Origin: Deltaproteobacteria bacterium
GTDB lineage: Bacteria > Desulfobacterota > Syntrophia > Syntrophales > UBA2210
Reading direction: 5' to 3'
Assembly (NCBI GenBank): GCA_016933965.1
Contig: JAFGTS010000024.1
Coordinates: 1-38,741, forward strand
Length of the DNA: 38,741 bases
Shown here one piece after another: positions 10,339 to 34,178 of the stretch. Numbering within the stretch: position 1 is the first letter of the stretch; every line of letters starts with the position of its first letter. The translations under genes and the position numbers were made by a program. The notes under the pieces were generated by a model, which saw nothing but the letters and a program-made list of their open reading frames with translations, was not told the origin of the DNA and made no database searches.

Positions 10339-11970
10339 ATGATGATGGATGTTCCCCTGTTGCTCCGGAGCTTTCTCCTGCGAGCGGCAAAGTTCTTCCC
10401 CAGGAAGGAAATCCTTTCGGTCTATCCCGATGGCATTTTCCGTTACACCTATGCCGACTATTTCAAGCGCACCTGCCAGCTGGCGCACGCACTTGAATCG
10501 CTCGGCGTGAAAAGAGGGGACCGGGTTGCCAGTATTGCCCTGAACAATCACAGGCACCTTGAGCTGTATTACGGGGTGCCCTGCATGGGCGCGGTCCTGC
10601 ATACGGCGAATTTCAGGCTTCCGCTGCACCATCTGGTCTATATCCTCAACCATGCCGAGGACAAGGTGCTCTTTATCGAGGAAGACCTGTTGTTCATCGT
10701 GGAAGCCATCAAGGACCAGCTCAAGACGATCGAGCACTTCGTGGTTCTCAGCCAGAGCGGCAAGATCCCCGAGACGACCCTCTCGCCGGTCTATTCCTAC
10801 GACGAGCTCATTTCGGGATTCCCCGAAGAATATGATTTTCCCACGGATCTCGATGAGCGGTCCCCCGCCATGATGTGTTACACATCGGCTACGACGGGTG
10901 ATCCGAAGGGTGTGGTATACACCCACAGGAGCATTGTGCTGCACAGCTATGCCGGGGGTGTCACCTTTGGCGTGTTGGAAGAAGATTGTGTCCTTCATGT
11001 CGTTCCCATGTTCCATGCCAATGCGTGGGGGTTGCCGCATCTGTGTCTGGGAATGGGACTGAAACATATCCTGCCGGGCAGGGATGTCCTTGATATGGGC
11101 AAGATATGCGGCATCATCGCCGATGAAAAGGTGACCGTGACCTGCGGGGTTCCCACCATCTGGCTCATGCTTTACAATTATCTCGAGCAGGGCGGGGCCC
11201 ATGATTTTTCGTCCCTGCGGGTCATTGCCAGCGGCGGTTCGGCCTGTCCTCTGGCCCTCATGAGAAACCTGAACGAAAAGTATAATTTCCCCATCAGGCA
11301 GGCTTACGGCGGAACGGAAACGTCACCCCTGGCGACGGCGGCCCTGGAGAAAAGTTATATGAAGGACCTTTCCCCTGGTGATCTTTACAGTATCCGCAAC
11401 AGTGCCGGCCTGCTCGCCCTTGGACTCGACATGCGGATCGTGAACGCTGAAACGGGGAAGGATGTTGCCATGGATGGCGAGGAAATGGGGGAGATCTGGC
11501 TCAGGGGACCCTGGATCGCTGATGAGTATTACAAGGAACCGGAACGCTCCGCTCAGTCATTCATTGACGGCTGGTTCCATACGGGGGACGTGGGGACCAT
11601 CGACGAAGAGGGGTACGTCAGGCTTGTGGACCGGACCAAGGACCTTCTGAAAAGCGGCGGTGAATGGATCTCTTCGGTGGACCTGGAGAACATCATCATG
11701 GCCCATCCAAAGGTGATGGAGGCGGCCATTATCGGCGTGCCCGATCCGAAATGGCAGGAAGTCCCCTTTGCCTGTGTCGTCGTCCAGCCCGGTGAGCGTT
11801 TGACCCCCCAGGAAATGCAGGATTTCCTCAAGGACAAGGTGAAGGCGTCCTACTGGATCCCCAAGCAGTATGCCTTCCTTGACGCCCTGCCGAAGACGAG
11901 CGTCCTGAAGTTTGACAAGAAGGAGCTCAGGAAGATGTTCGCTGACGGGAAGCTGGAGGTCATCGAATAA
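10339..11970 (+). CDS. AMP-forming fatty acid-CoA ligase
   Basis: Acyl-CoA synthetase of 543 aa resembling medium/long-chain fatty acyl-CoA ligases. Motifs are CYTSATTGDPKG (P-loop, with Ala in place of the usual Gly), QAYGGTETSP, WFHTGDVGTIDEEGY with the intact Thr-Gly-Asp, DRTKDLLKSGGEWISSVDLE, and a C-terminal SVLKFDKKELR where the catalytic lysine is expected. AAAGGAGG lies 9 bases before ATG 10339. It stands alone after a 350-bp gap and ends at its own terminator, so it is probably regulated apart from the first operon. It may supply acyl-CoA to the nearby dehydrogenases; specificity unknown. Confidence 0.92.
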   Translation: MMMDVPLLLRSFLLRAAKFFPRKEILSVYPDGIFRYTYADYFKRTCQLAHALESLGVKRGDRVASIALNNHRHLELYYGVPCMGAVLHTANFRLPLHHLVYILNHAEDKVLFIEEDLLFIVEAIKDQLKTIEHFVVLSQSGKIPETTLSPVYSYDELISGFPEEYDFPTDLDERSPAMMCYTSATTGDPKGVVYTHRSIVLHSYAGGVTFGVLEEDCVLHVVPMFHANAWGLPHLCLGMGLKHILPGRDVLDMGKICGIIADEKVTVTCGVPTIWLMLYNYLEQGGAHDFSSLRVIASGGSACPLALMRNLNEKYNFPIRQAYGGTETSPLATAALEKSYMKDLSPGDLYSIRNSAGLLALGLDMRIVNAETGKDVAMDGEEMGEIWLRGPWIADEYYKEPERSAQSFIDGWFHTGDVGTIDEEGYVRLVDRTKDLLKSGGEWISSVDLENIIMAHPKVMEAAIIGVPDPKWQEVPFACVVVQPGERLTPQEMQDFLKDKVKASYWIPKQYAFLDALPKTSVLKFDKKELRKMFADGKLEVIE

Positions 11971-12000
11971 TTGCTTTGACCACACTGCTGAAATGGACAG

Positions 12001-12033
12001 AGGCGGGAGCCGTCAGACTCCCGCCTTTCTATT
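12001..12033 (+). terminator. Rho-independent terminator of the ligase gene
   Basis: AGGCGGGAG (12001-12009) and CTCCCGCCT (12018-12026) form a 9-bp GC-rich stem with an 8-base loop, followed by TTCTATTT. The T-rich side serves the plus strand. The hairpin sits between the converging ligase and etfA genes and may also slow minus-strand transcription, though no T-run lies on that side. Confidence 0.85.
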
Positions 12034-13003
12034 TCCGGGAATGGACCGCCTTAACAAATGTCGGAATGAATTGCGTCAGGTCCTCCACGATACAGTAATC
12101 AGATACCCCGAAGATCGGGGCCGACGGATCGGAGTTAACGGCGATGACGAGCTGTGAGCCCTTCATGCCGGCGATATGCTGGCTTGAACCGGAAATGCCG
12201 CAGGCGATGTAGAGCTTTGGTGAAACGGTTTTCCCCGTCATGCCGATCTGGTGACCGTAATCGAACAATCCCGCATCGCAGGCGGCCCGTGATGCGCCAA
12301 CGGCCGATTTCGAAAAGACCGATGACATCTCGTATATCAGAGGGACATTCTCCGCTGTTCCCACCCCCTTGCCCGCCGAGACGATGACGTCGGCCTTTCC
12401 CAGTTCCAGCCCCGCGTATCCTGCTTCCCGTATCGAGACGGTCCGTGTTCCTGTCGGAACGTGGTGAAACGGTACGCGGTCGACCGGTCCCGGTGTATCC
12501 GCCTTTCCAGTGATCGCGGGCCAGGCTCCCGGGAGAATAGAGAGAACCGCCCGCTCGGTCAAAGTGCTTACGACGGCGACGATCTTTCCTCCCCACTGGG
12601 AACGGTCAAAGGTGAGATTCCCGGCTTCCGTTAAGAAGGCTTCAACCCCTGTCACACAGGCTGCGTCGAGACCGAGTGCCAGCAGTGGAACAAGTTCATA
12701 ACCGGCGGCAGCGGTATGGGGGAGGCAGACGAACCGGGGGGGCGCATCCCCGAGAACATCCAGGATGGCGGATGCGTAAGCTTCCGCGTTGAACAGGTCG
12801 AGACCATCTCCCTGAATGTCGATGACGGGAAGCCCGGTGTCTTCGGCGAGTATGCGCGCCGGTCGACTCGATGAGCCGCCTGCGACGACGATCGTCACCG
12901 TTCCATTGATAGCCTGTGCCAGCTCGACAGCGCAGGAGACCGTCTCATAGGTGACCGGTGTGATCTCATCACCGATCCGTTCAGCGATCACGACAATGGA
13001 CAT
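12029..13003 (-). CDS. etfA: Electron transfer flavoprotein alpha subunit
   Basis: EtfA, 324 aa, binds the redox FAD of the ETF heterodimer and carries electrons from acyl-CoA dehydrogenases. It begins MSIVVIAERIGDEITPV and has the N-terminal ETF domain. The C-terminal FAD domain shows CGISGSSQHIAGMKGSQ, then INSDPSAPIF-type spacing (here VNSDPSAPIFGVSDY). GGAGGAAAGGG upstream fixes the ATG at 13003; the frame extends 13 codons further without a better site. It lies 39 bases after etfB. Whether this ETF is of the simple or the bifurcating type cannot be settled by eye. Confidence 0.94.
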   Translation of the reverse strand: MSIVVIAERIGDEITPVTYETVSCAVELAQAINGTVTIVVAGGSSSRPARILAEDTGLPVIDIQGDGLDLFNAEAYASAILDVLGDAPPRFVCLPHTAAAGYELVPLLALGLDAACVTGVEAFLTEAGNLTFDRSQWGGKIVAVVSTLTERAVLSILPGAWPAITGKADTPGPVDRVPFHHVPTGTRTVSIREAGYAGLELGKADVIVSAGKGVGTAENVPLIYEMSSVFSKSAVGASRAACDAGLFDYGHQIGMTGKTVSPKLYIACGISGSSQHIAGMKGSQLVIAVNSDPSAPIFGVSDYCIVEDLTQFIPTFVKAVHSRK

Positions 13004-13042
13004 GAATCCCTTTCCTCCATTATGGCGATCCGGCTCCGGCAT

Positions 13043-13813
13043 TTACAGCATTCCCCGCTCATGAAGCGATACGAGCAGGGCCTGTGCCTTTTCTTCTGTG
13101 GTTCCAGAAAGAAATATACCCTTCGTCCCCTGCGCGGGGTGCCGGAGTCGTGTCACCCGTTCCCTGGCAGCCGGTGGGGACAGTGTTTCCCCCTCGATCG
13201 TCGTGAGTTCCTGGTGACGGGCCCGGAGGACATTCGACAGGGCCGGATATCGGGGTCTGTTAATGCCGGACTGGATGGTCAGCAAGGCCGGCAGGGCCAG
13301 CGTAAGACACACATGCCGGCCCCCTTCGATCTCCCGCTCCACAAAGAGGGTTTCCCCCCGGTCGTCGAGCTCTCGGTGAATGACCGACGCGGCGCAGGGA
13401 TATCCCATAAGGGCGGCGGTCATCTGTCCCACCTGGCAGTGCATGTCGTCTTCCGCCATGACCCCGGTCAGGATCAGGTCGTAACTCTGTTCCCGTGCCC
13501 AGGCGGCTATCATTGAGGCCGTTTCGAGCGGTGTCTCGAAGCGTCCTTCCCCGGTATGAACATGGATACCACGGGAGGCTCCCATTCCGAGCGCCTTCCG
13601 GAGTGTCTCCGTGACACGCGGCGGGCCGACGGAAATAACGTCTATCGTTTCAACGGGACGCTCCTCCCGTATCTTCAGTGCTTCTTCGAGGGCGAACTCA
13701 TCGAAACGGTTCATCCGGTATGTTCCTTCAAACAGGATACGACGCCGTGTTTCGTCGATGTTCAGAAGCCCTTCCAGGTCCGGGACCTGCTTGATGCAGA
13801 CAAGGATGCGCAT
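13043..13813 (-). CDS. etfB: Electron transfer flavoprotein beta subunit
   Basis: EtfB, 256 aa, begins MRILVCIKQVPD, the typical ETF-beta start. The nucleotide-binding segment GVMAEDDMHCQVGQMTAALMG is followed by the family C-terminal INRPRYPALSNVLRARHQEL. It forms a heterodimer with EtfA downstream. Its start is unusual: no good Shine-Dalgarno is visible, and the bases just upstream are an 8-bp tandem repeat (13818-13857) whose minus-strand reading gives only AGG about 10 bases before ATG. The gene runs divergently from the phosphatase/dehydrogenase/kinase cluster starting at 14102, which could be its electron donor set. Confidence 0.94.
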   Translation of the reverse strand: MRILVCIKQVPDLEGLLNIDETRRRILFEGTYRMNRFDEFALEEALKIREERPVETIDVISVGPPRVTETLRKALGMGASRGIHVHTGEGRFETPLETASMIAAWAREQSYDLILTGVMAEDDMHCQVGQMTAALMGYPCAASVIHRELDDRGETLFVEREIEGGRHVCLTLALPALLTIQSGINRPRYPALSNVLRARHQELTTIEGETLSPPAARERVTRLRHPAQGTKGIFLSGTTEEKAQALLVSLHERGML

Positions 13814-13817
13814 GTTC

Positions 13818-13857
13818 TGAATACCTGAATACCTAAGTGCCTAAGTGCCTAAGTGCC
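13818..13857. repeat. 8-bp tandem repeat next to the etfB start
   Basis: Five 8-base units run in phase: TGAATACC twice, then TAAGTGCC three times. The array starts 4 bases upstream of the etfB ATG (13813 on the minus strand) and so occupies its ribosome-binding and leader position. Confidence 0.8.
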
Positions 13858-13868
13858 TGATAAAACAT

Positions 13869-13947
13869 ACCTCCCCTTTGGAAAGGGGGATCGAGGGGGA
13901 TCTTAAATACATAAATCCCTCCCGGCCTCCCTTTACGAAAGGGAGGT
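13869..13947. repeat. Imperfect palindromic repeat element
   Basis: ACCTCCC at 13869 and GGGAGGT at 13941-13947 close a 79-base imperfect palindrome. Each arm has its own hairpin: CCCCTTT/AAAGGGG around 13873-13888, and a perfect 9-bp stem CCTCCCTTT/AAAGGGAGG with loop ACG at 13926-13946. It resembles the G-rich dispersed repeats with GGGGGAT arms seen in many bacterial genomes (from memory, not searched). No T-run follows either stem. Confidence 0.65.
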
Positions 13948-13956
13948 GAAAAAACC

Positions 13957-13998
13957 TAATCCGTAATCCGTAATCCGTAATCCGTAATCCGTAATCCC
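13957..13998. repeat. 7-bp tandem repeat
   Basis: TAATCCG is repeated five times without change (13957-13991), followed by a sixth unit TAATCCC. It is noncoding, lying between the palindromic element and the promoter of the 14102 gene. Confidence 0.85.
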
Positions 13999-14043
13999 AT
14001 TCTCCCTCCTACCCCAGACAGCGTTTTTTTGCAATATAAAAAA

Positions 14044-14053
14044 CGAACGTTCG
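14044..14053. promoter_or_regulatory. Candidate TetR-type operator
   Basis: CGAACGTTCG is a perfect 10-base palindrome placed 12 bases upstream of the TTGACA of the cluster promoter. Short palindromes of this GAACGTTC type are common TetR-family targets, and a TetR-like gene lies in the same operon at 16119-16808. Binding is inferred. Confidence 0.5.
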
Positions 14054-14065
14054 CTCATTTATTTG

Positions 14066-14095
14066 TTGACAAGGAACGGTTCGGCGGACTATACG
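14066..14095 (+). promoter_or_regulatory. Sigma70-type promoter of the 14102 cluster
   Basis: TTGACA (14066-14071), an 18-base spacer and TATACG (14090-14095). A start of transcription near 14102 would coincide with the ATG of the first gene, suggesting a leaderless or nearly leaderless message. No Shine-Dalgarno is visible there. Confidence 0.55.
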
Positions 14096-14101
14096 AATGT
14101 C

Positions 14102-14812
14102 ATGGGCATGATCTACATGATACGGCACGGACAGGCCTCTTTCGGCCGGCGGAATTACGACAGGATCTCCCCGCTGGGTATCAGGCAATCGCGGATTCTC
14201 GGAGAATACCTTGTCCACACAGGGCTCCGGTTCGACGCGGTCTATTCATGGAAACTTGAACGCCAGCAAGCGACGGCACGGGAAGTTATCGCCTGTTATC
14301 GCGAAGGGGGATTGGACATTCCCGATGTCATTTTTTCTGAAGCACTGAATGAGTTCGACTCAAAGGCCGTCATCATGGCCCAGGTTCCGGACATGGTAAG
14401 AGAGAACCCCGGGGTGACGAAGGATATCGAGAACATTTACACCGACAGAAAGTCGTTCCAGAAGGTTTTTGAAGAGGCCGTCCTGCGATGGATCTCGGGT
14501 AAATATCAAAAAACGGGCCTGGAGCCATGGCAGGATTTTTCTTCGCGGGTCTGTGGGGGTATCAGAATGATCATCGCTGAACAGGGCAGGGGGAAGAAGA
14601 TCTCCCTGTTCACATCGGGAGGTGCCATTTCGGCCCTGCTGCAGAATTCACTGTCGTTGCCGGCAGAACAGGCTATCAGGCTGAGCTGGCAGATCATCAA
14701 TACCTCGGTGACTCGTTTCATGTACGATGACGAACGGATCACCCTGGCGGGGTTCAACATGATCTCCCATCTTGAGCTGCAGAAGGACCCATCGCTGATC
14801 ACGTATCGGTAA
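14102..14812 (+). CDS. Histidine phosphatase-superfamily protein with a Ser at the second His site
   Basis: A phosphoglycerate-mutase-like protein of 236 aa beginning MGMIYMIRHGQASFG, with the catalytic Arg-His-Gly triad at residues 8-10. The second catalytic histidine of the superfamily (usually in a His-Gly-Gly motif) is replaced in FTSGGAIS, with Ser at about residue 172. From memory, relatives beside acyl-CoA dehydrogenases share this change; I could not check it. Dephosphorylation of a small phosphate ester is possible, perhaps linked to the kinase at 16805. The chosen ATG matches the usual family start. The frame continues upstream to a TTG at 14063 inside the promoter, which I reject. 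Confidence 0.85.
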   Translation: MGMIYMIRHGQASFGRRNYDRISPLGIRQSRILGEYLVHTGLRFDAVYSWKLERQQATAREVIACYREGGLDIPDVIFSEALNEFDSKAVIMAQVPDMVRENPGVTKDIENIYTDRKSFQKVFEEAVLRWISGKYQKTGLEPWQDFSSRVCGGIRMIIAEQGRGKKISLFTSGGAISALLQNSLSLPAEQAIRLSWQIINTSVTRFMYDDERITLAGFNMISHLELQKDPSLITYR

Positions 14813-14884
14813 GATGCGGGGCTCCATTACCGCGGTCGGATAAGAATCGCCGGCTTCCACCGGCTGAATAACAGGAGGTATTCT

Positions 14885-16093
14885 ATGGACTTTATGGTAC
14901 CGGAAAAAATACAGGTGATCACCGGGATGATCGACGAATTCGTCGACAGGGAATTGATCCCCCTGGAACCGGAATTTCTGAACAGGACCTTCAGGGATAT
15001 GGTCCCGGTTCTGAGTGAAAAGCGGGACATGGTGCGGAAAATGGAACTATGGGCCCCGAACCATCCACGGGAGTATGGAGGCATGGGGCTGAATCTCGTC
15101 GAGCACGCCTACGTGTCGGAATCACTCGGCAGGTCTCCCATCGGTCATTACGTGTTCGGCTGCCAGGCGCCTGACGCGGGAAACATTGAGATCCTGTATC
15201 TCCATGGAACGGACGAACAGAAGGAAACATGGCTCCGGCCCCTTATTGAAGGGAAGATCAGGAGCTGCTTCAGCATGACCGAGATCGACATGCCCGGTTC
15301 CAATCCCATAATGATGGATACTACGGCCGTAAAGGACGGTGACGAATACGTCATTAACGGACATAAATGGTATACCTCGTCGTCGGACGGGGCCGCCTTT
15401 GCCATTGTCATGGCTGTGACGAATCCTGATGCACCGACCTATTTCCAGACGAGCATGATCATCGTTCCCTGCGATACCCCCGGGTTCAACCAGGTTCGCA
15501 ACATACCGGTCATGGGAGAGGCGGGAACGGATTATAACGGCCACGGCGAGATCATCTACCAGAACTGCCGGGTACCGCAGAAAAACCTCCTGGGACCCGA
15601 GGGGCATGCCTTCGTGATCGCCCAGGAACGCCTCGGGCCGGGACGGATCCACCATTGCATGCGGTGGCTGGGTATCTGCAAGCGGGCCTTTGACCTCATG
15701 TGCAAGCGGGCATCGGAACGGGTCATGACGCCCGATGGAAAGACCCTGGGGACCAGGCAGATCATCCAGTCCTATATCGCCGATTGCGCCGCCGACATCC
15801 AGGCCGCCCGCCTCATGACCCTGCACTCGGCCTGGAAGATCGAGCAGTTTGGTGTCAAAGAGGCGCGAGAGGACATATCGCTCATCAAGTTCTTCGTGGC
15901 GAACGTCATGCAGAAGGTCGTAGACAAGGCGCTCCAGGTGCATGGAGGTCTGGGAATGACCGACGATATCATCATCCCCTGGTTCTACCGGCATGAACGG
16001 GCCGCCAGGATCTACGACGGTGCCGACGAGGTTCACAAGGTCACCGTGGCCCGCAGGATCCTGCGTGGTTACGAGGGAAAGAACATACGGTAG
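14885..16093 (+). CDS. Acyl-CoA dehydrogenase, ACAD10/11-like
   Basis: FAD-dependent acyl-CoA dehydrogenase-fold protein of 402 aa with an AACAGGAGGT ribosome site. CFSMTEIDMPGSNP lies near residue 130, and HGGLGMTDDI is near 354. At the site of the catalytic Glu of medium-chain dehydrogenase (Tyr-Glu-Gly-Thr) it reads YDGADEVH, with Asp378. That motif is typical of the ACAD10/ACAD11 branch. In those proteins the dehydrogenase domain works with an APH-type kinase domain to convert 4-hydroxyacyl-CoA, through a 4-phosphate, to enoyl-CoA. The kinase partner here is a separate gene at 16805, two genes downstream. Classic dehydrogenation is the alternative role. Confidence 0.9.
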   Translation: MDFMVPEKIQVITGMIDEFVDRELIPLEPEFLNRTFRDMVPVLSEKRDMVRKMELWAPNHPREYGGMGLNLVEHAYVSESLGRSPIGHYVFGCQAPDAGNIEILYLHGTDEQKETWLRPLIEGKIRSCFSMTEIDMPGSNPIMMDTTAVKDGDEYVINGHKWYTSSSDGAAFAIVMAVTNPDAPTYFQTSMIIVPCDTPGFNQVRNIPVMGEAGTDYNGHGEIIYQNCRVPQKNLLGPEGHAFVIAQERLGPGRIHHCMRWLGICKRAFDLMCKRASERVMTPDGKTLGTRQIIQSYIADCAADIQAARLMTLHSAWKIEQFGVKEAREDISLIKFFVANVMQKVVDKALQVHGGLGMTDDIIIPWFYRHERAARIYDGADEVHKVTVARRILRGYEGKNIR

Positions 16094-16118
16094 GGGAAAA
16101 CAGAGTGGAGCGGTTTGA

Positions 16119-16808
16119 GTGAAGTTCGAAACGTTTAAAAAAATGGTGAGGCTCTCCACGGAAGACATTTCCAGGGAATTGTTTCTGGAAAACAGGGAGC
16201 GGATCAAGATCAAGAAGGAGGACGTGGCCGTCAGGAACCTCGTGAAGATCTTCGAAGCCGTCCTTGTCATCAGCAATCGAAAGGGATTCGCGGCGATGAG
16301 CCTCAGGGAATTGAGCGCGGAGGCCGGCCTCAGCATGGGGGCACTCTATACCTATTTTTCGAGCAAGGATGAACTGCTCGATATGCTGCAGGCGATGGGA
16401 CGCGCTATTACCGGACGGGTTCTGCGGGACCAGATATCCGTGGTCGATGACACGAGGGAAAAGCTCAGGACGGCGATCCAGGCCCATCTCTATCTGAGCG
16501 AGGTCATGCAGTCCTGGTTCTATTTCTCCTATATGGAGACGAAAAACCTGAGCCGGAAGGAACACAAAAAGGCCATCGAAGCGGAACTGTATACGGAGAA
16601 AATATTTTCCGACATCATCGAACAAGGTATCGGAGAAGGAGTGTTCTCCCCTGTCGATAAAGATCTGACGGCCGCCGTCCTGAAGGCGATGCTCCAGGAC
16701 TGGTATCTGAAACGATGGAAATACCGGGGAAGGAATGTTTCCGTGGAACACTACGCGGAATTTCTCACGGAACTTGTTGAGTCTTATCTTTTGTTGACGC
16801 GGTCATGA
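16119..16808 (+). CDS. TetR/AcrR-family transcriptional regulator
   Basis: A regulator of 229 aa with an N-terminal helix-turn-helix near residues 45-95: RGFAAMSLRELS-type helix 1 region (here KGFAAMSLRELS), then EAGLSMGALYTYFSSKDELL, the classic TetR recognition-helix pattern. The C-terminal half is a variable ligand domain. The N-terminal extension of about 40 residues before the HTH is longer than usual. The GTG start at 16119 follows GTGGAG. Its stop overlaps the kinase ATG by 4 bases. It probably senses an acyl-CoA or hydroxy acid and controls its own cluster through the palindrome at 14044-14053 (inference). Confidence 0.9.
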   Translation: MKFETFKKMVRLSTEDISRELFLENRERIKIKKEDVAVRNLVKIFEAVLVISNRKGFAAMSLRELSAEAGLSMGALYTYFSSKDELLDMLQAMGRAITGRVLRDQISVVDDTREKLRTAIQAHLYLSEVMQSWFYFSYMETKNLSRKEHKKAIEAELYTEKIFSDIIEQGIGEGVFSPVDKDLTAAVLKAMLQDWYLKRWKYRGRNVSVEHYAEFLTELVESYLLLTRS

Positions 16809-17887
16809 TGGAGGAGAGAATGGATGTGATCGATAAATCAGTGAAAGTCAGGGAAGGAGAAGAACTTGATCTCAAACCGGTCGAGACCTTTTTGAAGGAT
16901 TCCGTTCCCGGCCTGCAGGGGGAACTGGTGGTCGAGCAGTTTCCTGGAGGATATTCGAACCTGACCTATCTTATACGGGTAGGCGACAGGGAGCTTGTTC
17001 TGAGAAGACCGCCATTTGGCAGAAAAGCGAAATCGGCCCACGACATGGGAAGGGAATACCGGATCCTGTCGGCGCTGCATCCCCTGTTTCCCTATTGTCC
17101 GAAGCCCCTTATATACGCCGAGGATGATTCCGTCATGGGCTGTCCCTTTTACGTGATGGACCGCATCAAGGGCATCATTCTTCGCAAGGACCTTCCTCAG
17201 GGCCTGGCTTTTGAGCCCAAAGATGCTCGAAGGCTCTGTGAGAACCTTCTGGATATCCAGTGCCAGCTTCATTCCATCGATTACCGGGAGGCGGGTCTTG
17301 AAGATTTCGGCAGGCCCCAGGGGTATGTGCGCAGGCAGGTTGAGGGATGGAGTGAACGCTACCGGCAGGCCCGGACGCCTGACGCGCCGGATTGCGAAAA
17401 GGTCATGGCATGGCTTGCCGAGAAGATGCCCGGTGAAATAGACAGGGTTTCCGTTATTCACAATGATTATAAACTGGACAACGTGGTCCTCGACCCCGAG
17501 GACCCGACACGCATCACCGGTATCCTGGACTGGGAAATGGCAACCATCGGGGACCCGCTCATGGACCTGGGATCCTCTGTCGCCTACTGGGTGGAAGAGA
17601 ATGATCCACCGGACCTGCAGGCGATCCGCCTGATGCCGACCAATATGCCGGGGGCCCTTACAAGAAAAGAACTGGTGGAACGGTACGTTGAGAGATCGGG
17701 GATACCCATTGATAACTTCGATTTTTACTACTGTTTCGGGCTTTTCCGGCTCGCCGTCATCGCCCAGCAGATCTACTACCGTTTCTATCATGGCCAGACA
17801 AAGGACAAGCGGTTCCAGATGTTCATCTTCGCTACGAAGATACTCGAGGCTACGGCACTGAGAGTAATGGCGGAATCGAATCTGTGA
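16805..17887 (+). CDS. APH-fold phosphotransferase, ACAD10/11 kinase-like
   Basis: A kinase of the aminoglycoside/choline phosphotransferase fold, 360 aa. GGYSNLTYLIRV is near residues 45-56, and LVLRRPP supplies the ATP lysine/arginine region. The catalytic loop is HNDYKLDN (residues 219-226) and DWEMATIGDP (from Asp242) is the metal-binding motif. This is the pattern of the kinase domain in ACAD10/ACAD11 and of LvaA-type kinases, which phosphorylate 4-hydroxyacyl-CoA. ATG 16805 overlaps the regulator stop (ATGA). ATG 16820 follows GGAGGAG and is an equally good start. Drug resistance is unlikely given the catabolic neighbours. Confidence 0.9.
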   Translation: MMEERMDVIDKSVKVREGEELDLKPVETFLKDSVPGLQGELVVEQFPGGYSNLTYLIRVGDRELVLRRPPFGRKAKSAHDMGREYRILSALHPLFPYCPKPLIYAEDDSVMGCPFYVMDRIKGIILRKDLPQGLAFEPKDARRLCENLLDIQCQLHSIDYREAGLEDFGRPQGYVRRQVEGWSERYRQARTPDAPDCEKVMAWLAEKMPGEIDRVSVIHNDYKLDNVVLDPEDPTRITGILDWEMATIGDPLMDLGSSVAYWVEENDPPDLQAIRLMPTNMPGALTRKELVERYVERSGIPIDNFDFYYCFGLFRLAVIAQQIYYRFYHGQTKDKRFQMFIFATKILEATALRVMAESNL

Positions 17888-17933
17888 AACCCCTCCGGCG
17901 CCGTATCCGCGACTCGAAAAAGGAGGTTTTTCC

Positions 17934-18953
17934 ATGTATGAATTACAGTTTGACCCCGTCCTTTGCGCGAACTGCATGACCGTCGATTGCATCATGAAAT
18001 GCCAGTACATCGACATGGAGCTTGCAACGGCAAAGGAGGAACACGACAAGGTGGTCAGGGGTGAGGATTCGGCGATTCTGAGGAAATGCGTGACCTGCTA
18101 TGCCTGCGAAGAGTATTGCCCCTGTGACAATCACCCCTTTTATCTCATTGTCGAGCGACAGGAACAGCTGGATATTCATCCGGTCCCGAAGCCCATAGAA
18201 AAATCTCAGGTCATCATGATGGCGCCGAAGGGACGGATCGAGCGCCAGGAGGTCAAGGAACCGGTTATCAACCTCTGCTACTTTCCCATGCTGAAGCGAT
18301 CCATCGCGGGAAAACTGTACGAGGGAGCTTCGCTTATCATGGGCAGCGACATCTTCTGCAATCTCATGTTCCTTCACTTCGCCCGCAACTCGGTCATCAA
18401 GGAGCGGCTGCCGGCGATGATGGACAATATCATGGCCTATCATCTGGGTCCGAGCGGCGTGAAGGATTTTGTCTGCTACCATGACGAGTGTTACGGGACC
18501 TATACATCCTGGGCGCCGGCCTTCGGTATGGAGGTCCCCTTCAGGCCGATCCACCTTTTCGATTTTCTTCAGAAGCGCCTGACGGAATTACAGTCACAGA
18601 TAAAACCGCTGGGGATAAAGGCAGCCTATCAGCGTCCCTGCTCGAACCGCCTCTGCCCGGAGACGGACCGGTTCGTCGATGGTATTTTCGAACTGATCGG
18701 CGTTGAACGCGCGGAACGGGAATATGACCATGAAAACGCCCTCTGCTGCGGGGGTGTCATGGAGGCACAGCAGTTGTTCGACCTGGCTGAAGAGGTCCAG
18801 GGTAAGAACGTTGAGGACATGAAAGCCTCAGGCGCGACGCATTGTGTCTTCAACTGTCCCTTCTGTTTTTTCACTCTCATGGGGAAGGTGACCGAAAAGG
18901 GTATGACGCCCATACTGATGTCCGACCTGTGCCGCATGGCGCTGGGCGAGTAA
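17934..18953 (+). CDS. CCG-domain iron-sulfur protein, heterodisulfide reductase-like
   Basis: Redox protein of 339 aa with AAAGGAGG before ATG 17934. The N-terminus carries cysteines 11, 14, 19 and 23, and a normal 4Fe-4S motif at cysteines 52, 55, 58 and 62 (CVTCYACEEYC). The C-terminal half has CCG-type cysteine groups: CYHDECYG, CSNRLC, LCCGG and CVFNCPFC, as in HdrB/HdrD-type proteins that bind noncubane or cubane clusters. It lies 18 bases before the GlcD-like gene, so it is probably part of an electron-transfer complex with the next two gene products. Confidence 0.87.
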   Translation: MYELQFDPVLCANCMTVDCIMKCQYIDMELATAKEEHDKVVRGEDSAILRKCVTCYACEEYCPCDNHPFYLIVERQEQLDIHPVPKPIEKSQVIMMAPKGRIERQEVKEPVINLCYFPMLKRSIAGKLYEGASLIMGSDIFCNLMFLHFARNSVIKERLPAMMDNIMAYHLGPSGVKDFVCYHDECYGTYTSWAPAFGMEVPFRPIHLFDFLQKRLTELQSQIKPLGIKAAYQRPCSNRLCPETDRFVDGIFELIGVERAEREYDHENALCCGGVMEAQQLFDLAEEVQGKNVEDMKASGATHCVFNCPFCFFTLMGKVTEKGMTPILMSDLCRMALGE

Positions 18954-18971
18954 CGGGAAGGGAGGGAATCC

Positions 18972-20357
18972 ATGGACCGGATATATGAAAAACTGGCAGC
19001 CATCGTGGGAAAGGAGTTCATTTCCAATGCCCCTGAGGAACGATATCTTTATGCCCGTGACCAGGGTGTGCAGCAGGCAAGCGCGCCCGACTATGTGGTG
19101 ATGCCGGACTCGACGGAGGAAGTGCGGCAGATAGTGCTGCTGGCCAATGAGGAAAGGATACCCGTTGTACCCATGGGGGGAGCACTGGTGCTTTCGGGCC
19201 TCACTATCCCGCTGCGGGGGGGCATCGTCCTGGATATGAAGCGGATGAACCGGATCCTCGAGGTGAACGAAGCGAGCCATTACGTCGTCGTAGAGGCCGG
19301 TGCGTCACATGGAATGCTTCAGGCCTATCTGAAAAAACACCATCCCGCGGTGAAACACTCAGTGCCCGACGCGCCTCCCGTGGCGACCGTCGGCGGGAAT
19401 ATGGCCATTCACGGTTCCGGCCATCTCTCACAGAGCGAAGGAGGGTTTCATTCCGAGATGGTCACGGGACTCGAGGTGGTCCTCGGTACCGGTGAGGTGC
19501 TGAAGCTGGGGTCCTGCTCCACCGTACCGAAGTGGTTTTCCCGGGCCCCCCTGCCCGACCTGGCCGGGTTGTTTCTCGGATGGAACGGTACGACGGGGGT
19601 CATCACCAAGATCGGCATGAAACTCTTTCCCAGTCCGAAACTGAAGGACGTGATGATGTTCATGACGGAGGATATCGACTCCGTAACGGATATTCTTTTC
19701 CGGGTCATCGGTACCGAAATGGCCGAGGACATCGCCTTCTTCGTGTCCCCCATGCCCGCCTATTTCGACGGCTTTCAGCTGCTCATGGTTTCCGTCGTGG
19801 CAAATTCGGAGAAGGAGATGAGGATGAGAAAAGAGCTCATCCGGGATTCGGTTCAGTCCTATCTCGACGACAAGGAAGCGGGATTCCTTCCCCTCCCGCC
19901 GCATATGAAGGTGAAACTGGTGGAAGCGCCGCAGAAGAACCTGAGCGAGTTCGCAGATGTCATGAAGGGCGGCGGCTTTGAATATGTGGGGGCCATCATG
20001 CCCGTTGAGGCCATTCCCGAGGCATACCGCGCGGGTCTGAAGATCACCGAAAAATATAATATCACCTATTCCATGGGTGCCCGGGTCGTCGGCCGCGGTC
20101 ACTCGGTCATGTTCTATTACGCCTATCCCTTCAATCGGGCCGACAAGGAGAACATGGGAACCGTGGCAAAGGCCCTGGAGGAGACGAATGAAGCGGCCCT
20201 GGAGATGGGCGGCATTCCCTGGAAGACGGAGGTTTCGGGCCAGCAGCTCATACTGGAGCGGATGGAACCGGGGACGTACCACTTGATGACGCAGATACGG
20301 AAGCTTCTCGATCCCAATGGGATCATGAATCCCGGCAACTGGGAGGTGCGGTCATGA
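18972..20357 (+). CDS. FAD-linked oxidase, GlcD/D-lactate dehydrogenase-like
   Basis: FAD-binding PCMH/vanillyl-alcohol-oxidase family enzyme of 461 aa. PVVPMGGALVLSGLTIPLRGG (about residues 60-80) and VATVGGNMAIHGSG (about 137-150) form the FAD domain. The C-terminal FAD-oxidase domain ends NPGNWE, like the usual NPGK ending. Family members oxidise 2-hydroxy acids such as glycolate or lactate; some pair with ETF for electron confurcation. GGGAGGGAATCC precedes ATG 18972. The stop overlaps the next ATG by 4 bases (ATGA), so it is translationally coupled to the HdrD-like subunit. The substrate is inferred only from the family. Confidence 0.9.
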   Translation: MDRIYEKLAAIVGKEFISNAPEERYLYARDQGVQQASAPDYVVMPDSTEEVRQIVLLANEERIPVVPMGGALVLSGLTIPLRGGIVLDMKRMNRILEVNEASHYVVVEAGASHGMLQAYLKKHHPAVKHSVPDAPPVATVGGNMAIHGSGHLSQSEGGFHSEMVTGLEVVLGTGEVLKLGSCSTVPKWFSRAPLPDLAGLFLGWNGTTGVITKIGMKLFPSPKLKDVMMFMTEDIDSVTDILFRVIGTEMAEDIAFFVSPMPAYFDGFQLLMVSVVANSEKEMRMRKELIRDSVQSYLDDKEAGFLPLPPHMKVKLVEAPQKNLSEFADVMKGGGFEYVGAIMPVEAIPEAYRAGLKITEKYNITYSMGARVVGRGHSVMFYYAYPFNRADKENMGTVAKALEETNEAALEMGGIPWKTEVSGQQLILERMEPGTYHLMTQIRKLLDPNGIMNPGNWEVRS

Positions 20358-21514
20358 AACAGGAATACGCCGATATAGTTCACCGTTGTTTCCGGTGCGG
20401 ATGGTGCAAACTGCCGACGAACTACGTCGATTTCAATTGCCCCGCCTACCTGAAGTACCGCTTCGAAACATTCGCTTCGGGCGGGAGGATGTGGCTTATC
20501 AGGGCCTGGCTGGACGGAGATATAGAAACGAGCGAGCGTCTCGGGCAGATCCTCTTTTCCTGCGTGACCTGCAAGAACTGTGTCGAAGCCTGTGCCCTTC
20601 CGAAGATCAAGGACAGCCTGGTCGATATTTTTATCGCCGCCCGGGAGGACCTGGTCGAGAAAGGCGCTGTCCCCCCCGCTGTCCGGGATTATCTGAAGGC
20701 CATGAGCATCAGCGGCAATCCCTATAAAAAGCCCCGGGATGAGCGGAGCGACTGGGCGAAGGGACTCGATCTGCCCGAATTCACCGATCAGGAGTACCTG
20801 TTCTATGTCGGTGACGTCGGATCCTATGACGAACTGGGCATGAAGATGGCACGGGAGGTCGGGAAACTGCTGAGAGATACGGGCCTGTCGATCGGCATCC
20901 TCGGCTCCGCCGAAGTGAGCGACGGCAATGATGTGAAAACGCTCGGGGAAGCGGGACTCGCTTCGCACCTGATGCAGGAGAACATCAGGGTCCTGCGGGA
21001 ACGGGGAGTACGGAAGATCATCACCCTGTCTCCCCACGGGTATAATGCCATGAAGAACGATTATCCTTCACTGGGGGGACGTTTCGAGGTGTATCACTAC
21101 ACCCAGGTGCTCGGCCTCATGGTGAATGACCGGGTACCCAAGGGAACGCTCGACGTGAAGGTGACCTTCCATGATCCCTGCTACCTGGGACGGTGGAACA
21201 GGGAATACTGGGGTCCCCGGTTCCTTCTGGGTTCCGTTCCGGGAGTGCGCCTGGTCGAGATGGACCGTAACATGCAGAATGCCCTGTGCTGCGGTGGCGG
21301 CGGCGGAAATTTCTATACCGATATCCTGGGAACGGGTGCCGATTCGGCAAGCCAGGTCAGGGCGCGGGAAGCCCTTGACACGGGAGCCGACATCCTTGCC
21401 GTGGCCTGTCCCATCTGCCACAAGATGCTCGACGATGCCGTGAAGGCAGAGGGGCTTGAGGGCGCCATCAGGGTCATGGACGTGGCGGGAGTGGTAAATC
21501 TATCGAGAGGCTGA
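20354..21514 (+). CDS. Iron-sulfur oxidoreductase, GlcF/HdrD-like
   Basis: Protein of 386 aa with an N-terminal pair of 4Fe-4S motifs: CFRCGWC plus a later CP, then CVTCKNCVEAC. A C-terminal CCG domain has DPCYLGRW, LCCGGGGGNFY and ACPICHKML. It most likely accepts electrons from the GlcD-like flavoprotein with which it is translationally coupled, and passes them to a quinone, ETF or another carrier. No membrane segments are visible, so it is probably a soluble or peripheral subunit. Confidence 0.9.
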   Translation: MKQEYADIVHRCFRCGWCKLPTNYVDFNCPAYLKYRFETFASGGRMWLIRAWLDGDIETSERLGQILFSCVTCKNCVEACALPKIKDSLVDIFIAAREDLVEKGAVPPAVRDYLKAMSISGNPYKKPRDERSDWAKGLDLPEFTDQEYLFYVGDVGSYDELGMKMAREVGKLLRDTGLSIGILGSAEVSDGNDVKTLGEAGLASHLMQENIRVLRERGVRKIITLSPHGYNAMKNDYPSLGGRFEVYHYTQVLGLMVNDRVPKGTLDVKVTFHDPCYLGRWNREYWGPRFLLGSVPGVRLVEMDRNMQNALCCGGGGGNFYTDILGTGADSASQVRAREALDTGADILAVACPICHKMLDDAVKAEGLEGAIRVMDVAGVVNLSRG

Positions 21515-21524
21515 GGAAAAACAG

Positions 21525-22430
21525 ATGAAGGTTGAAGACATAAGAAAAGTATTGGTCCTCGGGGCAGGGACCATGGGACAGATGATCGCGTTCCAGACAG
21601 CCCTGAGCGGCTATGAGGTGGTCGTCTATGACATCGATGAAGGCGTCTTCGAGAAGGCACGGGCGCGGATGGAAAGAATCGCCTCGTCGCTCGTCAGGCA
21701 GGGAAAGGCCACGCGGGAGCAGGCCGATGAATCAATCGCCCGCGTCCGGATGACGGCGGACGCCGCCGAGGCGGCCTGCGACGCCGATTTCGTGAGCGAG
21801 TCGGTGCCGGAGGACCCCGCTTTGAAAGGACAGGTCTTTGCCCGGTTCAACGAGCTCTGCCCGCCGCGGACCGTGTTCACCACGAACACGTCCACTTTGG
21901 TGCCCTCACAGTTCGCGGATCAGACGGGAAGGCCGGACAAGTTCGCCGCGCTGCATTTTCATGACATCAGAACGAACAATATCGTGGATATCATGCCGCA
22001 CCCGGGGACGGCACCGGAAACGGTGCGGCTCATCGAGGATTTCGCCCGGAGTATCGGACAGACGGCCATCGTCCTTCACAAGGAATGGAACGGCTATGTG
22101 TTCAATACCATGCTTTCGAGCTGGTTCTCGTCGGCCCTTACCCTGGCGTCGAACGACGTCGCGTCTCCCGAGGATATAGACCGCGCCTGGATGGGTGTCA
22201 TGAACGTTCCCGTCGGGCCCTTCGGGGTGATGGACCAGGTGAGCCTCAGCACCGTCTGGTTCATTCTTGAATATTGGGCTTCGAAGAACAACGATCCCCA
22301 GGCGAAACAGAACGCACAGTTCGTCAAGCAGTATGTTGACAAGGGCTTTCTGGGGGCAAAGGCGGGCCGGGGTTTTTACTCTTACCCCGGTGCTGCATAC
22401 CGGCAGCCGGATTTTATTGGAAAAAAATGA
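21525..22430 (+). CDS. 3-hydroxyacyl-CoA dehydrogenase
   Basis: NAD-dependent 3-hydroxyacyl-CoA dehydrogenase of 301 aa, oxidising 3-hydroxyacyl-CoA to 3-ketoacyl-CoA. The NAD fold is VLVLGAGTMGQMIAFQ (residues 9-24), followed by VVYDID. SESVPEDPALKG and the catalytic-histidine region LHFHDIRTNNIVDIMP (His in FH) follow. The helical C-terminal domain ends in AKAGRGFYSYP. GAGGAAAAAC precedes ATG 21525, 10 bases after the HdrD-like gene. It is a stand-alone enzyme and not fused to a hydratase. Confidence 0.92.
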   Translation: MKVEDIRKVLVLGAGTMGQMIAFQTALSGYEVVVYDIDEGVFEKARARMERIASSLVRQGKATREQADESIARVRMTADAAEAACDADFVSESVPEDPALKGQVFARFNELCPPRTVFTTNTSTLVPSQFADQTGRPDKFAALHFHDIRTNNIVDIMPHPGTAPETVRLIEDFARSIGQTAIVLHKEWNGYVFNTMLSSWFSSALTLASNDVASPEDIDRAWMGVMNVPVGPFGVMDQVSLSTVWFILEYWASKNNDPQAKQNAQFVKQYVDKGFLGAKAGRGFYSYPGAAYRQPDFIGKK

Positions 22431-22457
22431 CGGACGGGCGGAAAACCCTCAAAATGG

Positions 22458-22483
22458 TTGACATTGCTATACGAGATTATAAT
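22458..22483 (+). promoter_or_regulatory. Possible promoter for the ADP-forming synthetase gene
   Basis: TTGACA (22458-22463) and a perfect TATAAT (22478-22483) occur in the 73-base gap before the gene. The 14-base spacer is shorter than normal, so it may be weak or dependent on an activator. Confidence 0.35.
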
Positions 22484-22503
22484 TGATCGGTGAGAGAGCT
22501 TGT

Positions 22504-23922
22504 ATGGGAACCTATTCGCTGGAAGAATTGGAACGATATTTTTCACCTCATCACATCGCCGTTATCGGTGCCACCCCGAACAACCAGTGGTTCGGCAACA
22601 TTGTAGCGAACGCCGTCGAAGCGGGTTTTACCGGCAGGTTCTATCCGGTCAATCCGCGGGCTGAGGAGATATACGGGGTCAGGGCCTTTCCGAATATTGA
22701 TGAACTGCCGGCGGAAGTTGATTTCGCCGTCCTTATCGTGAAGAGTTCCCTCGTGCCCGACGCGGTGCGGAAACTCAACAATCGTGGCGTCAAACATGTG
22801 CTCCTTGTTTCATCGGGGTTCGCCGAGGTCGGGGAAGAGGGCAGGAACAGCCAGGTTCAGCTCCGGCGTTACTGCCGGGACGAGGGGATCATCCTCATGG
22901 GGCCGAACTGCCTCGGTTTCGTGAATCCGGCGAAGAAGGTGAGCGTTTTCAGCGGGCGGGCCGTGGAGGGTGCGCCGTTTTCCGGCCATGTGGCCGTTGT
23001 AGGCCAGAGCGGCGCCACTTCAGAGGTGATCGCCACGAAGATACTGAAAAAGGGACTGGGGATTTCCCTCTATGTCACGACGGGGAACGAAGCCCTGCTC
23101 ACGGCGGAAGACTGCATGGAGTACCTCGTTCATGACGACAGGACCCGTGTGATAACCGCATTCATCGAGGAGTTCAGGAATGTCAGGAAGCTGAAGGAGG
23201 TTGCCAGCCGTGCCGCCGAAGAACGGATCCCGATCATCATATTGAAGATCGGCAGTTCCGCGAAAGGGAAAAAGGCGGCCGCTTCCCACACGGGGGCCCT
23301 TGCCGGGAATGACAGGATCATTGACGGCCTGTGCCGGCAGCTCGGGATCATCCGGGTGGAAACCATCGAAGAGCTTGTTGAAACCACCGCCCTGTTTTCA
23401 CGGGTCCCTCGGTTGCCGGCCGGCCCGGGTCTCGGGATCTGTACCTTCTCGGGGGGATTGTGCGGCCTCTATGCGGACCTCTGCGACAGGTACGGCATAG
23501 CCCTTCCGCCCCTGGAGGAAAAAACCCTTTCACGGCTGAAGGAGCTCCTGCCCGCCTTTGCCCTGCCTGATAACCCGCTCGATGTGACCGGCTCTGGGTT
23601 TCTCGGTGGTATGAAGGAAATAGTTCAGTCCATGGTGGAGGACGGGAACCTCGACCTGATCGTGCCCATCTGCATCCCCCCCCAGAACGAAGAGGATTTC
23701 TTCGCTCCCATTATCAATGATTCATTCCTGAAGATCCTGCCCACGGTGAAGAAACCCGTCGTGCCGATCACTTTCAGGGAGATGACGGACTATGCGCGAC
23801 GGTACTTCAATGAGAAGGGATTATTCTATATAGAGAGTCCCGACGTCGGCTTCAGGGCGTTGGCGCACTTCATCGGCTATGGTGTATTTTTGAAAAGATC
23901 GGCCGAAGGGAACGGAAGCTAG
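22504..23922 (+). CDS. ADP-forming acyl-CoA synthetase alpha subunit
   Basis: NDP-forming acyl-CoA synthetase of 472 aa, related to acetyl-CoA synthetase (ADP-forming) alpha. The CoA-binding domain starts HIAVIGATPN near residue 20. GPNCLGFVNP is near 140, GQSGATSEVI near 170, and SHTGALAG near 268 holds the His that is phosphorylated in the family. It would couple acyl-CoA and ADP + Pi to acid and ATP. The beta ATP-grasp subunit is neither fused (only 472 aa) nor encoded nearby. ATG 22504 follows GAGAGA; a TTG 22483 overlaps the TATAAT and is less likely. Confidence 0.88.
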   Translation: MGTYSLEELERYFSPHHIAVIGATPNNQWFGNIVANAVEAGFTGRFYPVNPRAEEIYGVRAFPNIDELPAEVDFAVLIVKSSLVPDAVRKLNNRGVKHVLLVSSGFAEVGEEGRNSQVQLRRYCRDEGIILMGPNCLGFVNPAKKVSVFSGRAVEGAPFSGHVAVVGQSGATSEVIATKILKKGLGISLYVTTGNEALLTAEDCMEYLVHDDRTRVITAFIEEFRNVRKLKEVASRAAEERIPIIILKIGSSAKGKKAAASHTGALAGNDRIIDGLCRQLGIIRVETIEELVETTALFSRVPRLPAGPGLGICTFSGGLCGLYADLCDRYGIALPPLEEKTLSRLKELLPAFALPDNPLDVTGSGFLGGMKEIVQSMVEDGNLDLIVPICIPPQNEEDFFAPIINDSFLKILPTVKKPVVPITFREMTDYARRYFNEKGLFYIESPDVGFRALAHFIGYGVFLKRSAEGNGS

Positions 23923-33038: not shown

Positions 33039-34178
33039 TCAGTTAAATTCCTTCCTGGCGTTGATGAGTTCCACGAATGCCTGCAGTCTGGTCTTCATCT
33101 GGCCCGTGGAGAAGAAGCCGTATTCGCGCTCGAGCTGCAGGAGCGGTATGTCCAGTTCTTCACAGTAAGGCCGCATGTTAAGGACATCCACGCCCCAGAG
33201 TTGGCAGAACTTCAGCTTCTGGAAAATAATGCCGTCTGCGCGATACTCCCGGTACGTTTCCATGATCGCTTCGAGACGTTCGGGAAAGGAATCACCGATA
33301 CGGGCACAGGGGAAATGTGTCAGATAACGGCGGGACAAGGCCGTCAACGGCTCTTCGTTCACATTCACATCGTCCCGGTATGACCGTAGTCCGAAACAGA
33401 CAGGGTCGGCAACCACGTCGATCCCCTGTTCTTCCACGAAGGTCATGTAATCGGGTTCATCAAGAAGGCTGCCGGCAACCAGGACCCTGACGGCTCCATT
33501 CCGGCCGGTGGCCGATTTTCTCGATTCGAGCAGCGTTTGTGCCGCATCGATGAAATCATCGATCGGCATTTGGTGGAAAGCGATCGCGACGGTAAGCATC
33601 TCGGCGCCGCTGATCGGCGGGGCGTCGTTCCGGCGGAGTTCCGAGAGCTCCCGCAACAGTTTCCTGCCACGGTTGTACAGGTCTATGGCGGATGACAGAT
33701 CATCGTCCCTGATGCGGAAGTTGAGCCATTCTTCAATGCCGGTTTTCAGGGAGGTGAGTTCCTCGGTGAAATAGGAAATGTTTTCCTCCCGCTCGACTCG
33801 CGGGACATGGATCACATCATGATAGGAAGGCGGGTTCTTCACCATCCAGTTTTGCGTTGCCCGGCGGATCTGATCGCAGGTGTTGCAGCCGATCACCCCG
33901 TCGATGAAAGAGAGGTCGTTTTCGAGGGCGAGTGTCAGGACATTCCGGCAATAGGTGCAGGTGCGTGCACTCAGGTAGGTTGTTCCGGCACCGATATCCC
34001 TTCCGGGAATACCGGTTATCCGATAGGGGATGGCACCGGCCGCGTAAATGATCTCCGCAGGCAGGTAGGAGCAGAAGTAGCCGATTATCTTGTTTCCGGC
34101 GTCCTTTTCCTCTCTGATGCGTCGATTATAAGGGTTGGCGACGACCTCCCGAAAGGGTTCCATGGCTTCCGTGCTCAC
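33039..34178 (-). CDS. 2-hydroxyacyl-CoA dehydratase-family subunit (HgdB/BcrC-like)
   Basis: Protein of 379 aa with the family start GNKIIGYFCSYLPAEIIYAAG and IPYRITGI. ARTCTYCRNVL and IGCNTCDQIRR carry the cluster-ligand cysteines, and the C-terminal QKLKFCQLWGVD is also typical. It is the first gene of the four-gene minus-strand operon: subunit, subunit, activator, SCP2-like. GTG 34178 is chosen because GGGGAG lies 8 bases upstream; ATG 34163 is an in-frame alternative. A promoter is seen at 34408-34380. Together with 31708-33021 it should form a heterodimer with one 4Fe-4S cluster per subunit. Confidence 0.9.
   Translation of the reverse strand: MSTEAMEPFREVVANPYNRRIREEKDAGNKIIGYFCSYLPAEIIYAAGAIPYRITGIPGRDIGAGTTYLSARTCTYCRNVLTLALENDLSFIDGVIGCNTCDQIRRATQNWMVKNPPSYHDVIHVPRVEREENISYFTEELTSLKTGIEEWLNFRIRDDDLSSAIDLYNRGRKLLRELSELRRNDAPPISGAEMLTVAIAFHQMPIDDFIDAAQTLLESRKSATGRNGAVRVLVAGSLLDEPDYMTFVEEQGIDVVADPVCFGLRSYRDDVNVNEEPLTALSRRYLTHFPCARIGDSFPERLEAIMETYREYRADGIIFQKLKFCQLWGVDVLNMRPYCEELDIPLLQLEREYGFFSTGQMKTRLQAFVELINARKEFN

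Follow-up and report, generated by a model that had tools for sequence, protein, structure and literature searches.

A TetR-associated gene cassette with divergent etfBA, predicted to feed 4-hydroxyacyl-CoA into β-oxidation by ACAD10/11-type chemistry in a Syntrophales bacterium

The stretch of DNA analysed here (the window, 38,741 nucleotides) is one contig of the 2.85-Mb assembly of a deltaproteobacterium of the order Syntrophales, and it carries a compact cassette of four genes that was originally predicted, from the letters of the sequence, to be a split counterpart of the mammalian acyl-CoA dehydrogenases (ACADs) ACAD10 and ACAD11. On the forward strand the cassette begins with the gene of a 236-residue protein resembling branch 1 histidine phosphatases (14102..14812; PF00300, E 4e-17; start placed by alignment with relatives), which is followed by a 402-residue ACAD10/11/LvaC-type acyl-CoA dehydrogenase (14885..16093; PF00441/02770/02771), a 229-residue TetR-family regulator that is the predicted repressor of the locus (16119..16808; PF00440 and PF17932) and a 360-residue APH-fold kinase, predicted to act on 4-hydroxyacyl-CoA (16805..17887; PF01636, E 4e-56). 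Open reading frame positions and Pfam families bear out the presence and coordinates of all four genes, and the motifs read earlier are likewise in place: YDGADEVH at residues 377–384 of the dehydrogenase, HNDYKLDN and DWE at residues 219–226 and 242–244 of the kinase, together with the 4-base overlap of the TetR and kinase genes (16805–16808). The gaps between the genes, from phosphatase-like to kinase, are 72, 25 and −4 bp and leave no room for a gene of the size of lvaB, so that the absence of an LvaB-like small partner between the cassette genes stands as well. The coordinates of the original prediction were, however, too narrow, since the conserved unit also includes the divergent genes of the electron transfer flavoprotein (ETF), etfBA (12029–13813), that is EtfB (13043..13813; PF01012) and EtfA (12029..13042; PF00766 and PF01012), both on the reverse strand, as well as a predicted operator (14045–14056) between the two gene sets. 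For the phosphatase-like protein, the dehydrogenase, TetR and the kinase, NCBIfam gave no equivalog above the cut-off.

The assignment of the dehydrogenase to the ACAD10/11/LvaC type is supported by several lines of sequence evidence. Among solved structures, M. abscessus 4hr3 and ACAD11 come closest to it (276–256 bits), whereas ordinary ACADs reach at most 175 bits, and it is 39% identical to mouse ACAD11. In the alignment (chain numbering offset by one) R249, R254, H257, C258, M259, R260 and D378 correspond to ACAD11 R626, R631, H634, C635, M636, R637 and D753, and these seven residues are identical in 75 of 75 related cassette sequences. In the mouse enzyme D753 serves as catalytic base, and the residues that hold the phosphate are R626, H634 and R637 (PMC12440821). 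The YDGADEVH motif contains D378, an Asp replacing the Glu of ordinary ACADs; the paralogues from the same genome in which the motif is readable have Glu at this position, and none of the 19 dehydrogenase paralogues read from that genome contains the R-LGPGR-HCMR motif. The original prediction would have been undermined by a dehydrogenase grouping with ordinary chain-length enzymes; instead, in a maximum-likelihood tree of 53 sequences it joined ACAD11 and 4hr3 at 100/100, apart from all 19 own paralogues. Within this ACAD11-type group the window dehydrogenase, those of other anaerobe cassettes and a Gemmatirosa protein form a sister clade to ACAD11/4hr3 (P. putida LvaA and LvaC were not among the sequences in the trees made here). 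The enzyme is thus predicted to eliminate phosphate from 4-phosphoacyl-CoA.

The kinase, which is encoded separately and not in one fused chain with the dehydrogenase as in ACAD10/11, is matched by the ACAD11 kinase domain at E about 1e-51 with 32% identity. Its D221 and N226 correspond to the catalytic D220 and N225 of ACAD11, its R83 and R177 to the CoA-contacting R86 and R176, and each of these four residues is kept in 81 of 81 relatives; D242, of the DWE motif, is noted alongside these four. In the kinase tree, however, the protein falls with other bacterial kinases into a clade separate from the ACAD11 kinase (100/99), on long branches, and membership of the ACAD11-kinase subgroup is therefore not claimed. 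Hence the pairing of ACAD10/11- and LvaA/LvaC-type proteins proposed originally holds for the dehydrogenase by both tree and residues, and for the kinase by its residues but not by its clade.

The same arrangement was found well beyond this organism. When one genome per species was scanned, 80 loci were obtained whose kinases are 59–73% identical to that of the window; they come from Desulfobacterota, Spirochaetes, Syntrophomonadaceae, one Myxococcota metagenome-assembled genome and others. The shared order is divergent etfBA, phosphatase-like gene, dehydrogenase, TetR and kinase, followed by a short-chain dehydrogenase/reductase (SDR), a 3-hydroxyacyl-CoA dehydrogenase or a hydratase, with SDR genes 3′ of the kinase in 24 related loci. 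This order is shared by tens of genomes belonging to several phyla and so is not due to chance. In 55 loci the sequence upstream of the dehydrogenase extends for 3 kb or more; 40 of these have the phosphatase-like gene, and a divergent etfB adjoins 36 of the 42 among them that have TetR as compared with 2 of the 13 that lack it. In aerobic bacteria ACAD-SDR-kinase-histidine phosphatase clusters were found, and clusters of kinase, dehydrogenase and histidine phosphatase are widespread, so the system is not peculiar to the organism studied. As a separate observation, plasmid pHME132 of Haloferax mediterranei (L142:4791-7950) has a kinase, an ACAD11-type dehydrogenase and a HAD hydrolase adjoining one another, which is the domain set of ACAD10, split, in an archaeon.

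We consider it probable that the locus is a TetR-controlled catabolic divergon that feeds 4-hydroxyacyl-CoA into β-oxidation through the chemistry of ACAD10/11 (LvaA/LvaC), carried out by two separate proteins. In the ACAD10/11 homologues the 4-hydroxyacyl-CoA is phosphorylated and the phosphate is then eliminated to give 2-enoyl-CoA, with no external electron acceptor (PMC12440821, PMC11342911). By analogy, an acyl-CoA ligase would activate an acid, and the APH kinase would phosphorylate the 4-hydroxyl of the CoA ester to 4-phosphoacyl-CoA. The dehydrogenase-fold protein, by means of its flavin adenine dinucleotide and Asp378 and with Arg249, His257 and Arg260 holding the phosphate, would then expel phosphate to yield 2-enoyl-CoA and some 3-hydroxyacyl-CoA. 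The downstream 3-hydroxyacyl-CoA dehydrogenase (21525..22430) could carry on with the step that follows hydration of the 2-enoyl-CoA. TetR, bound to the palindrome at 14045–14056, would keep both etfBA and the cassette repressed as long as no acyl ligand is present, and the histidine-phosphatase-like protein would most likely act on or sense the 4-phosphoacyl intermediate, limiting its build-up. Candidate substrates, as was also proposed originally, are 4-hydroxy fatty acids or lactones. What was observed is the set of genes with its conserved order, the signature residues, the clade and the predicted operator; all the activities are inferred, as are the substrate and the ligand and what the phosphatase-like protein and ETF do.

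The first gene of the cassette was called a phosphatase in the original prediction, and the family and the fold agree with that name. The protein has the RHG nucleophile motif (R8, H9, G10), the second Arg (R54) and the acid (E84), with R8, H9, R54 and E84 invariant, and its AlphaFold2 model (mean predicted local distance difference test, pLDDT, 93.7) adopts a complete histidine-phosphatase fold, predicted to match PhoE, PGAM5 and RosC along its entire length, with Z about 21 (8s6r: Z 21.4, root-mean-square deviation 2.7 over 187 residues; 1h2e: Z 21.1). However, the second catalytic His, aligned with the His of solved catalytic relatives, is replaced by Ser172 (TSGG), and Ser stands at this position in 48 of 48 cassette phosphatase-like proteins and in every aerobic homologue read. 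As one canonical catalytic residue is invariantly lost, any phosphatase activity is putative. The gene is closely tied to its neighbours: of 148 sampled genomes of the phylum, 23 hold the dehydrogenase and 25 the kinase, and the 15 in which the phosphatase-like gene occurs all belong to both sets (hypergeometric p about 4e-15 for the dehydrogenase and 2e-14 for the kinase, for genomes that are not independent of one another). A second histidine-phosphatase-like protein of the same genome, on contig C23:56146-56838 (L114), has TSGN for TSGG and adjoins a gene of a RuBisCO-like protein. Two narrower ideas were rejected: the His-to-Ser change is not special to the anaerobic cassette, since Ser is also found in aerobic homologues and in this C23 copy, and a histidine phosphatase does not accompany one kinase clade only, as it also adjoins ACAD11-type-clade kinases in Sulfitobacter, Caballeronia and Azoarcus.

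Two roles of this protein, a weak or specific phosphatase and a sensor that restrains the kinase, appear about equally likely. There is a little under an even chance that it is an active phosphatase on 4-phosphoacyl(-CoA), serving either in the repair of a stalled intermediate or as the phosphate-removing step itself. The invariant R8, H9, R54 and E84 and the full predicted fold would fit such a role, and in Pseudomonas citronellolis, where a histidine phosphatase gene adjoins lvaA at the place where lvaB would be, phosphate removal was proposed for its product (PMC6692424). Yet all homologues inspected, aerobic ones included, have Ser where solved catalytic relatives have His; moreover, expulsion of the phosphate should require no protein but the dehydrogenase, and simple hydrolysis would regenerate 4-hydroxyacyl-CoA, wasting ATP. 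The other role, to which we assign a substantial probability, though one short of even, is that of a regulator of the kinase with little or no catalytic activity of its own; standing where LvaB would be, as a partner or as a sensor of phosphoacyl groups, it would resemble the degenerate HAD domain of ACAD10. The latter has lost one of two Asp residues, has next to no phosphatase activity and holds the kinase back (PMC11342911), while the P. citronellolis homologue stands in for LvaB, which in P. putida binds LvaA (PMC6692424). The invariance of the His-to-Ser replacement and the strict tie of the gene to those of the kinase and dehydrogenase also suit a regulator, but the full retention of His9 as nucleophile, of the two Arg and of Glu84 as acid is unlike a typical dead pseudo-enzyme. 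In addition, the gene is missing from 15 of the 55 related cassettes with enough upstream sequence (about a quarter), so it is not essential everywhere.

The regulation of the locus can be discussed on the basis of a predicted operator. The site, GAACGTTCGCTC (14045..14056, not assigned to a strand), lies in the intergenic region between etfB and the phosphatase-like gene, flanked by an A-tract and a T-rich stretch, and is the sole match to the consensus GARCGNTCGYTC in the window. Related loci totalling 1.03 Mb contain 57 consensus matches, of which 49 are situated at most 350 bp upstream of the cassette, a count that is descriptive, as the consensus was derived from the same loci. Independent support comes from the association with the regulator: among cassettes that have TetR the site is present in 36 of 58, among those that lack TetR in 2 of 16 (p 5e-4). 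The palindrome thus very likely marks a TetR-controlled divergon, in which the regulator, described originally as dedicated to the cassette where it is indeed encoded, very likely also controls the divergent etfBA. A scan for sigma-70 promoters gave no more matches than were obtained in shuffled sequences. The part of the region from etfB towards the phosphatase-like gene at 13817–13997 contains short tandem repeats (CTGAATAC, CCTAAGTG and 5.9 copies of TAATCCG) and hairpins.

A wide TetR regulon in the genome of the window was considered and rejected, because most 12-mer matches are intragenic, have no A/T flanks and look like chance; two survive. Apart from the cassette operator, the only intergenic, A/T-flanked match in the genome is C13:79013, 413 bp before an acyl-CoA ligase and a second copy of the kinase, and in a related genome an additional site precedes a pair of SDR and 3-hydroxyacyl-CoA dehydrogenase genes. 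These sites suggest a small regulon that would supply the missing ligase and β-oxidation steps. The kinase of the ligase-kinase pair (C13:79427-82218; L025:8427-11219) is 61% identical to that of the window, and no ACAD11-type dehydrogenase adjoins the pair. Another contig of the same genome (C55:40500-45600; L026:9003-14101) carries a DUF6285 gene, a third APH kinase, DUF7064/DUF7065, an AMP ligase and a gene of the phosphotriesterase family, possibly a lactonase, with no acyl-CoA dehydrogenase match on that contig. We take DUF6285 to be the family of LvaB, and the cluster may represent another hydroxyacyl or lactone route.

The link to ETF is the least explained part of the system. In a sequence comparison bearing on the type of ETF, bifurcating or not, EtfB is closest to human ETF and EtfA to a C. 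difficile ETF, with small score differences. One may ask if the dehydrogenase is a genuine ETF-linked oxidase, which would pass electrons to the adjacent ETF and form 2,4-dienoyl-CoA, not 2-enoyl-CoA. The etfB gene adjoining 36 of the 42 TetR-bearing cassettes, with one predicted operator between both gene sets, would agree with this, as would the fact that ACAD10 itself is thought to go through 2,4-dienoyl-CoA (PMC11342911). Nevertheless, we regard it as improbable, since ACAD10/11, all of whose signature residues are kept in the window enzyme, work without an external acceptor (PMC11342911), and aerobic clusters with the same kinase and dehydrogenase have no adjoining ETF. Under the phosphate-eliminating scheme ETF may serve later rounds of β-oxidation, or it may reset the flavin of the dehydrogenase when the dienoyl intermediate escapes. 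That an ordinary short- or medium-chain acyl-CoA dehydrogenase stands by chance beside an unrelated APH kinase is hardly credible, because the tree, the signature residues and the conserved linkage contradict it, although the fold, the domain families and the β-oxidation neighbourhood are common to ordinary dehydrogenases.

Several points weigh against the 4-hydroxyacyl-CoA pathway as proposed. The activities are assigned through homologues outside this clade; the dehydrogenase shares just 39% identity with ACAD11 and, within the type, branches off separately. As the kinase belongs to a clade other than that of the ACAD11 kinase, its substrate could differ. Possible alternatives are an acyl-CoA hydroxylated at C3 or C5 and a hydroxyacyl-CoA that carries a ring. 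Finally, ACAD10/11 need no external acceptor, thus the conserved etfBA is left unexplained by the plain scheme.

On the forward strand the same-strand run with short gaps extends to 23922 and comprises a cysteine-rich (CCG) iron-sulfur protein (17934..18953; PF02754), a GlcD/LctD-like FAD-linked oxidase (18972..20357; PF01565 and PF02913), a GlcF-like iron-sulfur CCG protein (20354..21514; PF02754 and PF13183), the above-mentioned 3-hydroxyacyl-CoA dehydrogenase (PF02737, PF00725; NF006143 above cut-off), which recurs beside the cassette, and an alpha-like subunit of ADP-forming acyl-CoA synthetase (22483..23922; PF13607 and PF13380). Upstream of the divergon an AMP-forming fatty acyl-CoA ligase (10339..11970, forward strand; PF00501; NF004837 above cut-off) could possibly activate the substrate. 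No LvaD-type SDR is present among the genes read at 10339–23922. A HAD-family hydrolase (PF12710; 24073–24738) is located 150 bp past the end of the run, ACAD10 likewise having a HAD domain, and a subunit similar to 2-hydroxyacyl-CoA dehydratase/benzoyl-CoA reductase (HGD-D; 33039–34178) fits an anaerobic lifestyle. Judging by its relatives and by gene content such as this dehydratase-like gene, the source organism is probably an anaerobe.

When the known systems are compared, mammalian ACAD11, a kinase-ACAD fusion (PDB 8v3u/8v3v; PMC12440821), shares with the window the two folds, the phosphate-holding Arg/His/Arg, the catalytic Asp, and the catalytic Asp/Asn and CoA-contacting Arg residues of the kinase; the window differs from it in having separate genes (39% identity for the dehydrogenase, 32% for the kinase), its own kinase clade, a bacterial regulator, ETF and a phosphatase-like partner. 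ACAD10 (HAD-kinase-ACAD; PMC11342911) also combines kinase and ACAD with a third, phosphatase-fold part whose active site is degraded, but this part is a HAD domain and not a histidine phosphatase, and the protein is fused and proteolytically split. The P. putida lva operon (LvaA-LvaB-LvaC-LvaD-LvaE) has a similarly split kinase and LvaC-type dehydrogenase and an acyl-CoA ligase, whereas the window lacks LvaB between kinase and dehydrogenase and an LvaD-type SDR in the operon, and has divergent etfBA and TetR in place of the sigma54-type regulator LvaR. The levulinate cluster of P. citronellolis LA18T comes close, with LvaA and LvaC homologues and a histidine-phosphatase family protein for LvaB, yet it belongs to an aerobic pseudomonad, is induced by levulinate and has an LvaR homologue, with no etfBA or TetR cassette reported (PMC6692424). 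From branch 1 histidine phosphatases (PhoE, PGAM5, RosC, phosphoserine phosphatase), with which it has in common the full fold, the RHG motif, the second Arg and the acid Glu, the window family differs by Ser throughout for the second catalytic His.

The chemistry, the split arrangement and a histidine phosphatase beside LvaA are thus known already, and since the P. citronellolis pairing has been published (PMC6692424), the replacement of LvaB by a phosphatase is not new. Within the open-licence literature searched, the new elements are the anaerobe clade with etfBA and TetR, the predicted operator with its second target, and the family-wide His-to-Ser change. A more far-reaching and rather doubtful idea joins two generalisations: that 4-hydroxyacyl-CoA kinases recurrently have at their side a third protein to restrain or sense the phospho intermediate (P. 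putida LvaB, the degenerate HAD in ACAD10, the fixed-Ser histidine phosphatase here), and that in anaerobes a single TetR operator governs the whole unit along with a dedicated ETF, which would keep the dehydrogenase flavin in a working redox state.

The mammalian ACAD10/11 route was worked out only in 2024–2025, and the roles of its HAD part and of LvaB are still open. The bacterial version described here is compact and made of separate proteins; with its mapped candidate operator and an active-site substitution common to the family, it would offer simple reagents for asking what the third partner does. The route is seen here in a clade mostly of anaerobic lineages, and the adjacent ETF makes flavin redox cycling a testable question. 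Genes labelled merely "phosphotransferase", "histidine phosphatase" and "acyl-CoA dehydrogenase" in many bacteria may thereby become candidates for a defined pathway.

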